61,439 nucleotides of DNA, taken from NCBI GenBank assembly GCA_036655895.1, contig JAVVPF010000018.1:1-61439 (forward strand), written 5' to 3'. The notes beneath the pieces are model-generated. The model saw only the letters and a program-made list of their open reading frames with translations. It had not been told where the DNA came from and searched no databases. Origin of the DNA: Cloacibacillus sp. GTDB lineage: Bacteria; Synergistota; Synergistia; Synergistales; Synergistaceae. Below are positions 3,581-59,604 of this stretch, in pieces. Each line of letters starts with the position of its first letter. Within the stretch, counting starts at the first letter, position 1. Both the position numbers and the translations under genes were made by a program.

Positions 3581-3636
3581 TCAACGATATTGCGACTGAA
3601 ATATTGACCTTTAGCGCAAGAAAGAGGAGCGAGTCT

Positions 3637-4935
3637 ATGAAAAAGCTGGAGATTGGTAATTTTCACGTAAGGGACATCTTTTTTGGCGAAGAAACTGCAT
3701 TTAAAAATGGAGTGCTCACGGTTAACAAGAAGGAAGCAATTGCTTACTTAAACCCTGAGGGCAAACTGACCAACATCGAACTTTATGTAGTCAGACCAGG
3801 AGACAGCGCTCGTTTGGTTCCGGCAAAAGCGGCGGTGGAGCCGCGCTATCGTCCTGATGGCCGCGCCGTCTTCCCAGGCTACACCGGTCCCATGGAAAGC
3901 GCCGGAGACGGTGTGCTTTATGCGCTAAAGGGCATGAGCGTCATTTGCTGCGGCAAGTACGGAAACATGGTAGACGGCATGATAGATATGTCTGGACCGG
4001 CGGCCAAACACAGCATCTATGCCCAGTTGATCAATTTGGTGGTGTACGCGGAACGAGCCAATGAAAAAGACCTGGATCTTTCCATACGCGTAGAAACTGA
4101 CCAACGGCTGGCAGCTCATCTTTTGGCGGAATATGTCGCAAGAGCGCTGGAGGGACAGGAGCCAGAGGACTGGGAATGCTACGCACTGGAGCCTGGGGCT
4201 GCTGAAGCTGAAAAAAAAGGCCTCCCACGCGTCGGCTATCTCATGAGCGTCTATAATCAGTACGCCAATAACTGTAACGACATGATCTATGGCGCCGACA
4301 GCCATAACATGTTATCTGTCTTTATGCATCCCAATGAAGTGCTCGACGGCGCGCGCGCCGCTCAATTCGGTCTGATGGGTCAAACGACCGCAGCTTACGG
4401 TTTTCAAAATGATCCGACTCTCAAACATCTGTATAAGGAGCACGGCAAAACTATCAATTTTATTGGCGTAGTGCTGTACCCCACGGACGTATCGAACAAC
4501 ATGAAGCTTCGCGTTAAAAACGCAAGCGGTCAGCTTGCTTCTGCTCTAAAACTTGACGCTGCGGTTGTCAGCGAATGGGTGGGCGGCAGCAACGCGGATG
4601 TCGATTTCTTCTATCAGTTGGCGGAATTGGAAGACCGCGGCATCAAGACCGTAGGGATCATGGCGGAGCACGGCGGTAAAATGATGCAGGATCTCCGCGG
4701 AAACGCAATTGTTTCAGGAGGAGACACTGGCGCAATTTATGAATTGCCTGCAATGGATCTTGTCATTGGAGATATCCAGTCCACAGTCAGGGACTATTTC
4801 TATGGCTCCTGGCCCGTGCATAGTGAGTACGGACCAAGTCTGAGGCCGGACGGCTCGTTGATAGTCAATATGTACATGATAGCGGACGGCGGTAATACGA
4901 CGGGCTTCCTGACCAAGACAGTCAAAGAATACTAA
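3637..4935 (+). CDS. Glycine/sarcosine/betaine reductase component B alpha/beta precursor (GrdE/G/I type), Cys-less variant
   Basis: Component B of the Stickland-type reductases binds the amino substrate and passes a carboxymethyl group to selenoprotein A. The 432-aa protein matches the proprotein along its length: LEIGNFHVRDIFFGEET at the start, PGYTGPMESAGDGVLYALKG, DGMIDMSGPAA, and LYKEHGKTINFIGVVL after the usual cleavage region. In GrdE the chain is cut at a Cys (about 242) in SGNCVSACDK to make the pyruvoyl cofactor. Here the aligned stretch is AAQFGLMGQTTAAYGF, with no Cys. An Asn-Cys at residues 212-213 lies about 30 residues too early. ATG 3637 has GAGGAG seven bases upstream. The selenoprotein gene follows after 24 bases. 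Substrate unknown. Confidence 0.82.
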   Translation: MKKLEIGNFHVRDIFFGEETAFKNGVLTVNKKEAIAYLNPEGKLTNIELYVVRPGDSARLVPAKAAVEPRYRPDGRAVFPGYTGPMESAGDGVLYALKGMSVICCGKYGNMVDGMIDMSGPAAKHSIYAQLINLVVYAERANEKDLDLSIRVETDQRLAAHLLAEYVARALEGQEPEDWECYALEPGAAEAEKKGLPRVGYLMSVYNQYANNCNDMIYGADSHNMLSVFMHPNEVLDGARAAQFGLMGQTTAAYGFQNDPTLKHLYKEHGKTINFIGVVLYPTDVSNNMKLRVKNASGQLASALKLDAAVVSEWVGGSNADVDFFYQLAELEDRGIKTVGIMAEHGGKMMQDLRGNAIVSGGDTGAIYELPAMDLVIGDIQSTVRDYFYGSWPVHSEYGPSLRPDGSLIVNMYMIADGGNTTGFLTKTVKEY

Positions 4936-4959
4936 GAGATACTTTAGGAGGAGCTATTG

Positions 4960-6261
4960 ATGAGACAAGCAATTTTATTTATCAATCAGTTCTTTGCCGG
5001 CGTTGGCGGCGAAGGGCAGGCAGATTTTGAACCGGTCATTCTGGATGGCCCTGTAGGTCCAGGGATAGCGTTGCAAGCTGCTTTGACGAATGTAACTATT
5101 ACTCACACCGTAGCCTGCGGCGATAACTTTATGAACAGCAACCGTGATGAAGCGATCGCCATGATCCAAAAATTCCTGGATGATAAAAGCTTTGATCTGT
5201 TCCTGGCAGGCCCAGCTTTTCAGTCTGGACGCTATGGCATGAGCTGCGGCGAGTTGTGCAAGTTTGTCAGCGAGCATTACAACGTACCGGCTGTTACAAG
5301 CATGAACGAAGAAAGTCCCGGCGTTGACGCTTATCGTGAAAATCCGAATATCTACATCGTCAAAGGACATAAAAGCGCCGCAAAAATGCGCGCAGACGTC
5401 GAGGCGATCGCTAAACTAGCCAATAAGCTGGCAGCAGGTGAAGATATCCTCTGGGCGGAGGCCGAGGGCTACTTTGGACGCGGGATCCGCAGGGAGGTTT
5501 TTGTGGAAAAAACGGCCTCCGAGCGTGCAGTAGATATGCTGCTTGCCAAATTAGCCGAAAAACCATATACGACAGAATACAAAATAGAGGTCCACGACGT
5601 GGTGCAGCCCGCTCAGGCCGTGGCCGACCTACAGACGTGCAAAATCGCTCTAATTAACAGCGGGGGGCTCGTGCCTGTTGGAAATCCCGATCGCATGCCT
5701 TCGGGCACAGCCTCTATTTGGAAGCTTTACCCCACTGATGAGCTGGACGCATTTTTGCCTGGCGAATTTTATAGTGTTCACGGAGGCTTCAGCACAGATT
5801 TCGTCAACGCCGATCCCGAAGCGCTGGTGCCATTAAAAACCGTCAAAGAATTACTTAAAGAGGGCGCTTTTGGAGCGCTTGCACCTTTCTTGTACAGCAC
5901 TACCGGCAATTTGACCGCTTTGAAGGATGCTCGTCGGATGGGCAAGGAGATGGCGGAAGATCTCAAAAGTAAACAGGTCAGTGCGGCAATTTACGTATCC
6001 ACCTGAGGAAGCTGCACGCGTTGCGGTGCAACGATGGTAAAAGAGCTGGAAAAAGCAGGTATCCCCACCGCTCATATAACAAACATGACGCCTGTTGCGA
6101 AGGTCACAGGAAGCAACCGAATCGTTCCGGGGGTCGCGATCACGAATCCGTGCAGTGACGTGACGCTGCCTAAGGACGAGCAGGAAATAATGAGAAGAAA
6201 GCTTATAGAACGCGCACTTGAGGCAGTCTCTACGGACGTTTCCGGTCCCACATTTTTTTGA
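4960..6261 (+). CDS. Glycine/sarcosine/betaine reductase component B selenoprotein (GrdB/F/H type), internal UGA = Sec
   Basis: The catalytic subunit of component B. The N-terminal part (FINQFFAGVGGEGQADFEP, GPAFQSGRYGMSCGELCKFV) and the C-terminal part (TRCGATMVKELEKAGIPTAHI, NRIVPGVAITNP) match GrdB along its length. They are joined in one frame by TGA at 6004-6006, giving ST-U-GSCTRCG, the family's selenocysteine site, so the real product is about 433 aa, not two pieces. A stem-loop follows the UGA directly. The start is ATG 4960 (AGGAGG eight bases upstream); a TTG at 4957 is too close to the site. Components A and C are not in the window and must be shared from elsewhere. It works with the upstream precursor. 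Confidence 0.92.
6004..6030 (+). other. Selenocysteine UGA with adjacent stem-loop (bacterial SECIS candidate)
   Basis: UGA (6004-6006) is followed by TGCAC (6013-6017), an 8-base loop GCGTTGCG, and GTGCA (6026-6030). A small stem-loop right after the UGA inside the coding region is what SelB needs in bacteria. The stem is short (5 bp), so the fold is only indicative. Confidence 0.55.
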
Positions 6262-6555: not shown

Positions 6556-6593
6556 CAAAAGACAGGCATCAGAATAGGAAGGAGAGGTTGTCT

Positions 6594-8099
6594 ATGAAAA
6601 TTAGTTGGTTACAAATTGGAATGGCAATTAGTTATATGGTGGTTCTTATCTGTGTGGGCATGTATATGAGCCGGAAAGTGAAAACAAGCTCCGACTATTG
6701 GATAGGCGGAAGGTCGGTAGGGCCTGTCGCAACGGCCATTTCGTACTGCGCGGCCTACTACAGCACGGTGGCGATCATCGGTGGCCCTCCGCTATACTAT
6801 CTTTACGGGATGGGTTACTCCGCACTGGAATGTTTTTTAAATGTTTTCCTTACCGGGTTTGTGATTTTTGTTTTGTTTGCGCCAAAAATGCGGGCCATTT
6901 CCGAACGGGTGGACGTAGTATCTCTTTCCGGGTTTTTGGCAGTGCGCTACCGTTCCAACAAGATCAGGTTGATTTGTGCGATCATCATAGCGCTCATGAT
7001 GATTCCCTACGCTATGTCATGCGTCAAAGGTATCGGAGACGCGTTGACTTCAATCGCCGGGATCCCGTATCAAATCAGCGTCGTCGTCATTGTCATAGTC
7101 TCGTTTGCCTATCTGATCACCAGCGGTTACTGGGGCGCTGCCACAGTTGATCTAATCCAGGGGCTTACCATCACTCTGGCGGTCGTGGTTACGGCTATTG
7201 CCATCTTGATACACACCGGCGGCATTACCCCGATAGTGAGCTATATGGTGAATGAACATCCGAATCACGCCACTATGACTGGCGGGCTGTCGTGGAGCGC
7301 GATTTTCAGCTACGCGGGAGTTTGGGCCTTTATAGCGTTTGGGCAGCCACAGCTCACTACAAAATTCCTGGCTTTGAAAGACAACCGCACCGTAGGCGCC
7401 GTAATGCGCATATCCACAGCGTGGCAAATCATATACTGGCTGTGCACGGCGATCATTGGCATGGGCGCGCTGTATCTCTACAAAGGGAAGGGGTTTGTCA
7501 ATATTGATTTAATAGCTCCTACTGCGGCAGCAGATTTCGGCGGCTCGATTACTGCAGGGATATTCCTGTGCGGCGCTCTTGCCGCAGGCTTTTCCACAGT
7601 TGCGGCGCTTGTGTTGACTTCATCCGCCGCGGTTGCAAAGGATATCTATGAAGACTATCGTTCCATTGCCACAGGAAAACAGGTGGATTCCACAAAATCC
7701 GTCAAACTTTCCAGGGTCGTCACAGGAATCGTGTTGCTTGTCATTGGAGTTGGATCCTTGTATCCGCTTGATTTTGTATGGTCCCTCTCTACGATGTCGG
7801 CCGGTGTCATGGGCGCTGCTTTTACGGCCCCAATCTTGCTGGGGATTTACTGGAAACGGGTCACCACTCAGGGATGCTTTGCTGCAATAATCGGAGGCTC
7901 TATACTCTCCATAATCTGGTATATTACAGGTATGTCCAGCCTTGTGCACTCATTTGTGCCTGGTACGCTCTTGTCTTTTATACTGATGGTCGTGGTCTCC
8001 CTTATGACGCGACCCATGCCGAAAGAACATGTTGACGTGTTCTTCGAGGCAAACTGCGATCAGGAGAAGATAGACGCGGCGATTGCCAGCGCAAAATAA
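6594..8099 (+). CDS. Sodium:solute symporter (SSS family)
   Basis: An inner-membrane Na+-coupled importer of 501 aa with about 13 predicted helices, the usual SSS size. Characteristic segments are SDYWIGGRSVGPVATAISYCAAYYSTVAIIG near the N-terminus, VDLIQGLTITLAVVV in the middle, and GALAAGFSTVAALVLTSSAAVAKDIYEDY, which holds the Ser/Thr-rich Na+ site region. The start is ATG 6594 with AGGAG nine bases upstream; a TTG at 6588 is too near the site. It stands downstream of the grd-like reductase genes and the small membrane peptide, so it probably brings in the reductase substrate (a small amino or quaternary-ammonium compound). That is inference. Confidence 0.9.
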   Translation: MKISWLQIGMAISYMVVLICVGMYMSRKVKTSSDYWIGGRSVGPVATAISYCAAYYSTVAIIGGPPLYYLYGMGYSALECFLNVFLTGFVIFVLFAPKMRAISERVDVVSLSGFLAVRYRSNKIRLICAIIIALMMIPYAMSCVKGIGDALTSIAGIPYQISVVVIVIVSFAYLITSGYWGAATVDLIQGLTITLAVVVTAIAILIHTGGITPIVSYMVNEHPNHATMTGGLSWSAIFSYAGVWAFIAFGQPQLTTKFLALKDNRTVGAVMRISTAWQIIYWLCTAIIGMGALYLYKGKGFVNIDLIAPTAAADFGGSITAGIFLCGALAAGFSTVAALVLTSSAAVAKDIYEDYRSIATGKQVDSTKSVKLSRVVTGIVLLVIGVGSLYPLDFVWSLSTMSAGVMGAAFTAPILLGIYWKRVTTQGCFAAIIGGSILSIIWYITGMSSLVHSFVPGTLLSFILMVVVSLMTRPMPKEHVDVFFEANCDQEKIDAAIASAK

Positions 8100-57135: not shown

Positions 57136-57909
57136 ATGGATATTGCAAAACTTACAGATCTTAGAGGAAAATCCGCCGTGGTAACAGGCGGCGCGGGCGG
57201 CATAGGCGCCGCCTGCGCGCGTACCTTCGCCGCAGCTGGCGCAAACGTAGCCATCATAGACAAAAACGCGGAGGCCGCGCACCAAACAGCGCTTGAGATC
57301 GCCGAGGAATTTGGCGTGCATACAGCCGCTTTCGAATGCGACGTCATATCCGCGGCAGACGACACAGACGTCATAGAACGCGCCGCAGCGGCGCTGAAAG
57401 GCCTGAACATCCTCGTCAACAATACCGGAGGCGGAGGCGGCGGAGCGGAGCGTTTTGAGGGGCTCTCAGCCGATTACATCAACAAGATATTCAGCCTCAA
57501 CGTCTACTCGGTCTTTCGTTTCTCACGCCTTGCCCTGCCGCACATGAGGGCCGCGGGCTATGGTTCCATCGTCAACATCAGCTCAATGGCAAGCATCATG
57601 AGCGGAGCTGACATGTCCGTCTACAGCGCCTCCAAGGCCGCCGTGAACGCCCTCACGCGCCAGATGGCGATAGACGTGGCTCCCGTTCGTGTGAACGCCA
57701 TCGCGCCCGGCGCAATAAAGACGCACGCGCTTGCTACGGTCCTCACAGAACCGATGGAACGCAAGATGCTGGAAAAAACTCCGCTGGGACGTCTAGGCGC
57801 GCCAGAAGACATAGCAAACGCGGCGCTCTTTTTCGCCTCCCCGATGGCCTCATGGGTCTCTGGGCAGACGCTGATAGTCTCAGGCGGAGGATACCAAACG
57901 CTCGATTAA
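57136..57909 (+). CDS. SDR family oxidoreductase resembling 7-alpha-hydroxysteroid dehydrogenase
   Basis: A 257-aa short-chain dehydrogenase. The cofactor motif is VVTGGAGGIGAACARTF, then NNTGGGGGG, the Ser-Tyr-Lys triad in ISSMASIMSGADMSVYSASKAA, and IAPGAIKTHALATVL. The last 70 residues (RLGAPEDIANAALFFASPMASWVSGQTLIVSGGG) agree closely with what I remember of E. coli HdhA (7-alpha-HSDH), including the Gly-rich NNAGGGG stretch. A bile-acid or other secondary-alcohol dehydrogenase is plausible, a general SDR equally possible. Single gene with terminators on both sides. Confidence 0.82.
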   Translation: MDIAKLTDLRGKSAVVTGGAGGIGAACARTFAAAGANVAIIDKNAEAAHQTALEIAEEFGVHTAAFECDVISAADDTDVIERAAAALKGLNILVNNTGGGGGGAERFEGLSADYINKIFSLNVYSVFRFSRLALPHMRAAGYGSIVNISSMASIMSGADMSVYSASKAAVNALTRQMAIDVAPVRVNAIAPGAIKTHALATVLTEPMERKMLEKTPLGRLGAPEDIANAALFFASPMASWVSGQTLIVSGGGYQTLD

Positions 57910-57934: not shown

Positions 57935-57974
57935 CAAGAAGAGACTCACACAAAGCGTGCGAGCTCTCTTCTTG
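57935..57974 (+). terminator. Terminator after the SDR gene
   Basis: CAAGAAGAGA and TCTCTTCTTG form a perfect 10-bp stem with additional inner pairing, followed by TATCTT. Confidence 0.65.
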
Positions 57975-58040
57975 TATCTTGACGGCCTCCCTGTGCTATA
58001 ATATCGCAGATAGAAACTCCCGTAAAAGAGGTGGCAGAAA

Positions 58041-58376
58041 ATGAAAAGCATAAACTATGCTCAGTACGCCCGTGACGTTATAGAGGCCTCGCACGAACGG
58101 CCCGTAATAGTGGATATCTGGGACCCGTCGTGACCGCCCTGTATAGCGCTTGCTCCGAAATTTGAAGAGCTGGCGGCAAGATACGCGGGGCGTATCGACT
58201 TCTTAAAGATGGACCGCTCGCAAAACAAAGAGATAATGAAAGAGCTCTCCCTGCGCGGCGTACCCACTATAATATTTATGAAAGACGGAAATAGCGCTGC
58301 GCCGCGTCTTACCGGAGACGAGCAGGCGACGGAGGAAAAGATCCGCGCCGCGGCGGAGAAGATCATCGGCAATTAA
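58041..58376 (+). CDS. Thioredoxin-like selenoprotein with U-P-P-C active site (internal UGA = Sec)
   Basis: A 111-aa thioredoxin-fold protein interrupted only by TGA at 58131-58133 (codon 31). Read through as Sec it gives PVIVDIWDPS-U-PPCIALAPKFEELAARYA, exactly where thioredoxin has V-D-F-W-A-x-W-C-G-P-C-K-x-x-A-P. The Sec thus replaces the first, nucleophilic Cys and the resolving Cys34 is kept. The cis-proline region LRGVPTIIFMKDG and the length are normal for thioredoxin. AGAGGTGG precedes ATG 58041. The second in-frame UGA protein in the window (GrdB-type) shows that Sec insertion operates in this genome. The partner may be a peroxidase or a reductase. A nonsense mutation is possible but would be a striking coincidence. 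Confidence 0.87.
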
Positions 58377-58428: not shown

Positions 58429-59604
58429 ATGAAAAAACTACTGCTGCTTGCGGCGCTTCTGCTATTTGCCGCGCTTCCCGCTCACGCCGACGCGCCGTTT
58501 CACATAGGCGTCGTCACCGGCACAGTCTCGCAGGGCGAAGACAACGTCCGCGGGGCCGAGAGGCTCATTGCCATGTACAAAGACGCCTCAAAGGGCGGCA
58601 TGATAAAACACGTCACCTACCCCGACAACTTCGGAGCCGAAATGGAGACCGTCATAAGCCAGATAGCCGGCCTTGCGGACGACCCAAAGATGAAAGTCGT
58701 GGTCGTCATGGAGGGCGTGCCAGGCACAGCCGAGGCCTTCCGCCGCATCAAAGAAAAACGCAAAGACATCCTATGCTTCACGGGGCAGCCGCAGGAAGAC
58801 CCGAACGTAATAGGTGCTGTGGCCGACCTCGTCGTCAACTCCGACAACCTCGCCATGGGCTATATCATGCCGGCCGCCGCGAAAAAGCTTGGCGCCAAGA
58901 CCTACGTCCACATATCATTCCCGAGGCACATGAGCTACGAACTGCTCTCCCGCAGACGCAAAATAATGGAGGCCGCCTGCAAAGACCTGGGCCTCAAATT
59001 CGTCTTTGAAACCGCGCCCGACCCCACAAGCGACGTAGGCGTGGCCGGAGCGCAGCAGTACGTTCTTGAAAAAACCCCGGCGTGGCTCCAGAAATACGGG
59101 AAAAATACAGCCTTCTTCAGCACCAACGACGCTCAGGTGGAGCCGCTCCTCAAAAAAATAACCGAGCTGGGCGGTTTCTACGTCCAGACCGACTCTCCGC
59201 TTCAGGGCTACGCCGGAGCGCTTGGGATAGATCTGAAAAAAGAAAAGGGCAACTGGCCCGCCATACTTGGCAAAATAGAAAAAACAGTAGTAAATAAAAG
59301 CGCCTCAGGACGCCTCGCCACATGGGCCTACCCGTCAGGCTACAGCATCACAGCGGCGCTTGGTGAATATGGCAAGCGCGTAGTTGAAAAGAAGGCGAAG
59401 CTGGGTAGACAGTCCGACGTAATGAAAGCCTTCGCCGCCTTCTCGCCGGGCCTTGCGTGGAACAGCAGCGCCTACACCGACGCCGCAACAGGCGTAAAGA
59501 TGAAGAACTTCCTGCTCATCTACCAGGACACCTACGTCTTTGGCAAAGGCCCCCTCGGCATGAACAAAATAAAGGTTCCCGAAAAATATTACAAAATCAA
59601 GTAA
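58429..59604 (+). CDS. DUF3798 periplasmic binding-protein-like lipoprotein or secreted protein
   Basis: A 391-aa exported protein with signal peptide MKKLLLLAALLLFAALPAHA-DAP. The rest resembles the type 1 periplasmic-binding fold: FHIGVVTGTVSQGEDNVRGAERLI, MKVVVVMEGVPGTAEAFRRIKEK, GYIMPAAAKKLGAKTYVHISFPRHMSYEL and NTAFFSTNDAQVEPLLKKI. I recognise it as DUF3798, common in Synergistota and some Clostridia, without known ligand. CGGAGG lies eight bases upstream. It follows the seleno-thioredoxin gene by 52 bases and may share its transcript. No transporter genes follow. Confidence 0.8.
   Translation: MKKLLLLAALLLFAALPAHADAPFHIGVVTGTVSQGEDNVRGAERLIAMYKDASKGGMIKHVTYPDNFGAEMETVISQIAGLADDPKMKVVVVMEGVPGTAEAFRRIKEKRKDILCFTGQPQEDPNVIGAVADLVVNSDNLAMGYIMPAAAKKLGAKTYVHISFPRHMSYELLSRRRKIMEAACKDLGLKFVFETAPDPTSDVGVAGAQQYVLEKTPAWLQKYGKNTAFFSTNDAQVEPLLKKITELGGFYVQTDSPLQGYAGALGIDLKKEKGNWPAILGKIEKTVVNKSASGRLATWAYPSGYSITAALGEYGKRVVEKKAKLGRQSDVMKAFAAFSPGLAWNSSAYTDAATGVKMKNFLLIYQDTYVFGKGPLGMNKIKVPEKYYKIK

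Follow-up and report, generated by a model that had tools for sequence, protein, structure and literature searches.

Thioredoxins that carry selenocysteine (Sec) in a UxxC active site (PF00085) are listed as an experimentally verified family of prokaryotic selenoproteins (PMC9312934, PMC13188914). By 2005-2006 they had been reported from Sargasso Sea data, Treponema denticola, Geobacter, and other sources (PMC1088965, PMC1794560), and the hosts named for them include Treponema denticola, Geobacter, and Carboxydothermus (PMC9312934, PMC1794560, PMC1088965). The CPPC thioredoxins of filarial nematodes are active with thioredoxin reductase (PMC8914392). The Synergistota are known as a selenoprotein-rich phylum (PMC5029168), and the published selenoprotein count for C. 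porcorum is 18, with the families unnamed. Here we describe a thioredoxin with a UPPC active site, the first residue of which, judging by comparison with its relatives, is almost certainly Sec, specified by an in-frame stop codon.

The window (the whole stretch of 61,439 nucleotides that was analysed) contains the gene and its principal sites as follows.

58027..58034, + strand: ribosome-binding-site-like AGAGGTGG, 6 nt 5' of the ATG (read from the sequence)
58041..58376, + strand: putative gene for a Sec-containing thioredoxin; 111 codons, opening with ATG and closed by TAA, with a single in-frame TGA (frame, Pfam, orthologue)
58131..58133, + strand: codon 31 (TGA), predicted to specify Sec as the first residue of the active site (frame, orthologue search, alignment)
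58140..58142, + strand: TGT codon 34, putative resolving Cys of U-P-P-C, alignment-invariant (frame, alignment)
58263..58265, + strand: Pro75 codon in RGVPT, presumed thioredoxin cis-Pro position, alignment-invariant (alignment)

With TGA translated as Sec, positions 58041-58376 give 111 codons plus TAA, and the sole TGA is codon 31 (58131-58133). The encoded protein of 111 aa reads MKSINYAQ...VDIWDPS-U-PPC...RGVPTIIF...; the in-frame TGA falls at the first Cys of CxxC, and the second Cys is kept (U31-P-P-C34). The cis-Pro role of the Pro75 position is one that we assume from general knowledge of thioredoxins. The Pfam Thioredoxin model (PF00085) matches with an E value of 1.9e-18 and a score of 66.8 bits (cut-off, 23.5). 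The original prediction, a thioredoxin whose first active-site Cys is replaced by an in-frame TGA, is thus borne out by the frame, by WDPSUPPC and GVPT, and by Pfam. The UPPC motif that it named also stands, but not the term "dipeptide," as UPPC is a tetrapeptide motif in which PP is the variable dipeptide. The cut-offs of the TrxA equivalog models are missed (64.1 versus 96.8 bits for TIGR01068, and 66.9 versus 140 bits for NF047697), and because the NCBIfam TrxA-type matches are all subthreshold, we regard the UPPC protein as a divergent thioredoxin and not as the housekeeping TrxA. It has no signal peptide. A single-sequence AlphaFold model (pLDDT 62), in which the order of secondary structure is thioredoxin-like, was kept out of the evidence, and Foldseek returned no match to this model at an E value of 0.001. 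The only ORF that default calling reports at the gene interval lies antisense to it (58061-58372, minus strand), so the remark that normal gene calling can miss this gene was a fair one.

When 188 Synergistota genomes were searched for the UPPC protein, three matches scored highly, namely, the window itself and orthologues in two further genomes (G138 and G124). The G138 orthologue, from an assembly that consists of one contig (3,585,187 bases), is 60% identical and has one TGA, at the identical codon. The G124 orthologue (49% identity) is stop-free, with Cys at the TGA column (WDPCCPPC). TGA-bearing copies are known from only two of the 188 genomes, G138 and the genome that contains the window (G000). 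The remaining matches listed are at most 50% identical, and the ones inspected have a CGPC, CVPC, or CAPC motif. The TGA column is Cys in every other aligned sequence, and P21, D25, W27, P29, C34, and P75 are invariant in the alignment. A frameshift, a stop elsewhere, or a column lacking both Cys and Sec had been named beforehand as signs of a pseudogene; the relatives show none of these, and Sec (G138) and Cys (G124 and other relatives) align to codon 31. In a maximum-likelihood tree, the two TGA copies group at 98/87 and the Cys copy of G124 joins them at 100/99. The resulting UPPC/CPPC clade of three proteins sits on a long stem, apart from all other sequences in the tree, the glycine-reductase thioredoxins among them. 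A scan of a genome contig collection gave one thioredoxin fragment, which is unrelated, and a scan of a viral contig collection gave no matches; no plasmid match reached 60% identity, and the best one listed was at about 35%.

The genome that contains the window (2.90 Mb, a 160-contig draft, 99% complete) decodes Sec. It has selA (467 bits), selB (366 bits, on the contig shared with selA), and selD (322 bits), together with a tRNA-Sec that scores 76 bits (gathering score, 47). The selD gene has one in-frame TGA (G000:C3:80102-81028, L089), by which SelD, the selenophosphate synthetase, is itself a selenoprotein. A GrdB-family selenoprotein is also encoded in the window, at 4957-6261, with its TGA at 6004-6006; the halves either side both match TIGR01918 (376 and 95 bits), and the SECIS of this gene is recognized by Rfam (SECIS_4, 49.3 bits). 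Positions 3604-6261 form a second selenoprotein operon, composed of a GrdG/FarE-like subunit and then the GrdB-family protein (betaine/sarcosine/glycine type), and a sodium/solute symporter follows at 6588-8099.

The bacterial SECIS consensus comprises a stem of 4-16 bp, a loop of 3-9 nt with G within the first two positions, and 16-37 nt from UGA to loop (PMC13188914). A strict consensus scan after the TGA at 58131-58133 of the window copy found no qualifying hairpin (a 4-bp stem with a loop of 3-9 nt) in the allowed interval, and the best candidate of the hairpin scan is the following.

58152..58170, + strand: weak candidate SECIS apical hairpin, GCTC-CGAAATTTGAA-GAGC

As RNA (GCUC-CGAAAUUUGAA-GAGC), the loop of this candidate begins 22 nt past the UGA and has G at position 2; at 11 nt, it is longer than the usual 3-9. 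At the corresponding stem, G138 has GCGC/GCGC, with one compensatory pair change (U-A to G-C), and the Cys orthologue in G124 breaks two of the four stem pairs. This is the pattern expected of a real SECIS, and the compensatory change is one event in two sequences only. The two-species consensus fold (window and G138) is equalled by 13-16% of randomized synonymous-codon controls. The folding energy of the window copy is ordinary, as 30-58% of synonymous-codon controls fold as well, and that of G138 is low over a 42-nt stretch, where 0.2% of such controls are as good. A consensus-qualifying hairpin is present in G138, and a strict hairpin also occurs in 70% of its synonymous controls. Rfam, searched up to an E value of 10 with 141 bases around the TGA, matched neither the window copy nor G138. 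A SelB-type stem-loop had been proposed as a check; the only hairpin found is weak, noncanonical, and no better than synonymous controls. Some putative bacterial SECIS elements and selenoprotein genes do not fit the consensus (PMC13188914), and the deep-Sep authors report that at least 13% of the known genes escaped bSECISearch. We therefore consider the SECIS of the UPPC gene to be unproven, not absent.

If the TGA were a true stop, the gene would be a decayed thioredoxin (a pseudogene) or the product of an assembly or sequencing error of TGT or TGC. The lack of a convincing SECIS in the window would fit this reading, as would the derivation of the window from a 160-contig draft. However, the identical codon is TGA in the single-contig assembly of G138, despite a protein identity of 60%, and a TGA common to two independent assemblies excludes a sequencing error. 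Between the window and G138, codons 32-109 differ by 19, 21, and 44 changes at codon positions 1, 2, and 3, respectively. Over these 78 codons after the TGA, dN is 0.32 and dS is 1.73 (Nei-Gojobori); the dN/dS of about 0.18 indicates purifying selection 3' of the TGA, which excludes a decayed tail, and no further stop or frameshift is present. Moreover, the codon affected is precisely that of the catalytic Cys, and the genome has the full Sec machinery. Pseudogene and sequencing error are thus effectively ruled out, and it would be very surprising if the TGA proved to be a true stop. It would be slightly more surprising still if the TGA were read through as another amino acid (near-cognate, e.g., Trp). 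The weak SECIS signal would suit such readthrough, but the column is Cys in all of the Cys-type relatives aligned, and, on similar evidence, the same genome decodes UGA as Sec in no fewer than two further genes (SelD and the GrdB family). Trp in particular is disfavored, as TGA serves as an ordinary stop elsewhere in the window and is thus not reassigned. We conclude that the best explanation, and a highly probable one, is that the gene product is a cytoplasmic thioredoxin and that the TGA at 58131-58133 is decoded as Sec by SelB and tRNA-Sec.

The gene is flanked by two others.

57136-57909: short-chain dehydrogenase, upstream of the thioredoxin gene (Pfam)
58429..59604, + strand: DUF3798 protein, 391 aa, with a signal-peptide-like N-terminus; downstream partner of the thioredoxin in three genera (Pfam, synteny)

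An inverted repeat, CAAGAAGAGA...TCTCTTCTTG (57935-57974), lies in the gap that separates the dehydrogenase gene from the thioredoxin gene. It may end the upstream transcript, although the matches listed by a terminator scan are all on the minus strand. The DUF3798 gene (399 bits) starts 52 nt past the thioredoxin stop. DUF3798 is directly downstream of the thioredoxin in all three genomes that have it (G000, G138, and G124), the copies in G138 and G124 being 89% and 75% identical to that in the window, whereas other DUF3798 matches in the family are at most 71% identical to the paired copy. These identities, with the shared synteny, argue that the pairing is old and that the DUF3798 partner constitutes its own orthologue group. 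Gene neighbours other than DUF3798 differ among the three genomes. As the pair is kept in three genera, the neighbourhood is not a matter of chance, and the original description of the gene as merely standing alone with DUF3798 does not hold. The accompanying statement that no thioredoxin reductase is adjacent was correct, in that the only reductase gene of this genome above the TIGR01292 cut-off, which scores 348 bits, is on a contig other than that of the window. G137, which shares a genus with G138, has neither the UPPC thioredoxin nor its DUF3798 partner, so the pair is patchy even inside one genus.

DUF3798 occurs in 160 of the 188 Synergistota genomes. Paralogues in G000, G137, and G173 (L123, L125, and L127) adjoin an ABC ATPase and two BPD_transp_2 permeases, from which we infer that DUF3798 is probably the extracytoplasmic substrate-binding component of an ABC importer. 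One of the paralogues in G000 also adjoins an M24 peptidase. No transporter genes lie beside the paired DUF3798 copy within the window, and, among solved structures, the one nearest to DUF3798 is 3qi7, whose deposition describes a putative transcriptional regulator.

Sec would be inserted at codon 31 itself, and the thioredoxin and DUF3798 genes would be co-transcribed. By the standard cycle of the thioredoxin family, Sec31 would attack a substrate disulfide, Cys34 would resolve the mixed selenenylsulfide, and the one clear NADPH-thioredoxin reductase of the genome would regenerate the protein, which would in this way pass electrons to disulfide or selenenylsulfide substrates. The original suggestion that such a protein is a very strong reductant stays hypothetical. 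The other PF00085 thioredoxins of the genome are one of cytoplasmic type (CVPC, in the glycine-reductase cluster) and one that is secreted and TlpA-like. Given that a CVPC thioredoxin is already in the cell, the UPPC protein would be a second thioredoxin, presumably specialised, and a specialised role beside the glycine-reductase thioredoxin seems to us the likeliest. Our guess is that it reduces something imported through the DUF3798 binding protein. It is rather unlikely that the UPPC/CPPC thioredoxin and its dedicated DUF3798 protein constitute a specialised redox-uptake pair, in which an imported substrate is reduced in the cytoplasm and the mRNA SECIS is perhaps off-consensus. A rival account, which concerns the role only and is compatible with the Sec reading, is that the two genes share a transcript by history alone, with no functional link, and that the thioredoxin acts as a general reductant of cytoplasmic disulfides; we rate this at somewhat under an even chance. 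DUF3798 is widespread without a UPPC thioredoxin, which favours this account, and the signal-peptide-like N-terminus of DUF3798, with no signal peptide on the thioredoxin, would place the two on opposite sides of the membrane, where no direct meeting is expected. However, the pair has stayed together in three genera while the other neighbours differ, and the paired DUF3798 is a distinct orthologue group; both points speak for some connection.

The locus is of interest in several respects. Genes of this kind tend to be truncated at the TGA by ordinary gene callers, and the comparative support for this one is clean. The window and G138 versus G124 form a natural Sec/Cys pair with an unusual PP, useful for gauging the contribution of Sec to thioredoxin. 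Pairing with a thioredoxin is a first functional hint for DUF3798, and the missing canonical SECIS makes the gene a reasonable subject for asking how broadly SelB recognizes its targets. What is new is an added Sec thioredoxin, one whose motif is of the CPPC type and whose partner is lineage-specific, not a new kind of protein. The novelty suggested at the outset was overstated, as UxxC Sec thioredoxins and active CPPC thioredoxins were already known. In the literature searched, UPPC is not mentioned with thioredoxin and selenocysteine, and the thioredoxin/DUF3798 pairing is apparently undescribed.

Compared with these known systems, the UPPC protein resembles the filarial CPPC thioredoxins in having PP between two redox residues, whereas those proteins have Cys, are eukaryotic, and belong to an unrelated lineage. 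Like the SaoT (NF040730) and HUIPC (NF047660) selenoproteins, it has a small thioredoxin fold with UxxC; membership of either family was rejected, as neither model was among the NCBIfam matches up to an E value of 0.01. With the glycine-reductase thioredoxins of the Synergistota it has about 33-49% domain identity and a common cis-Pro and W-x-P frame. Those proteins differ in having Cys (CVPC or CGPC) and in forming a separate clade, and they adjoin grd genes in the clusters that were opened. The protein departs from the known Sec thioredoxins in its UPPC motif in a WDP context, in its Synergistaceae clade paired with DUF3798, and in that a canonical SECIS was not found, but it shares with them the thioredoxin domain, Sec (as predicted here) in the first position of a UxxC motif, and an anaerobic, Sec-decoding host.
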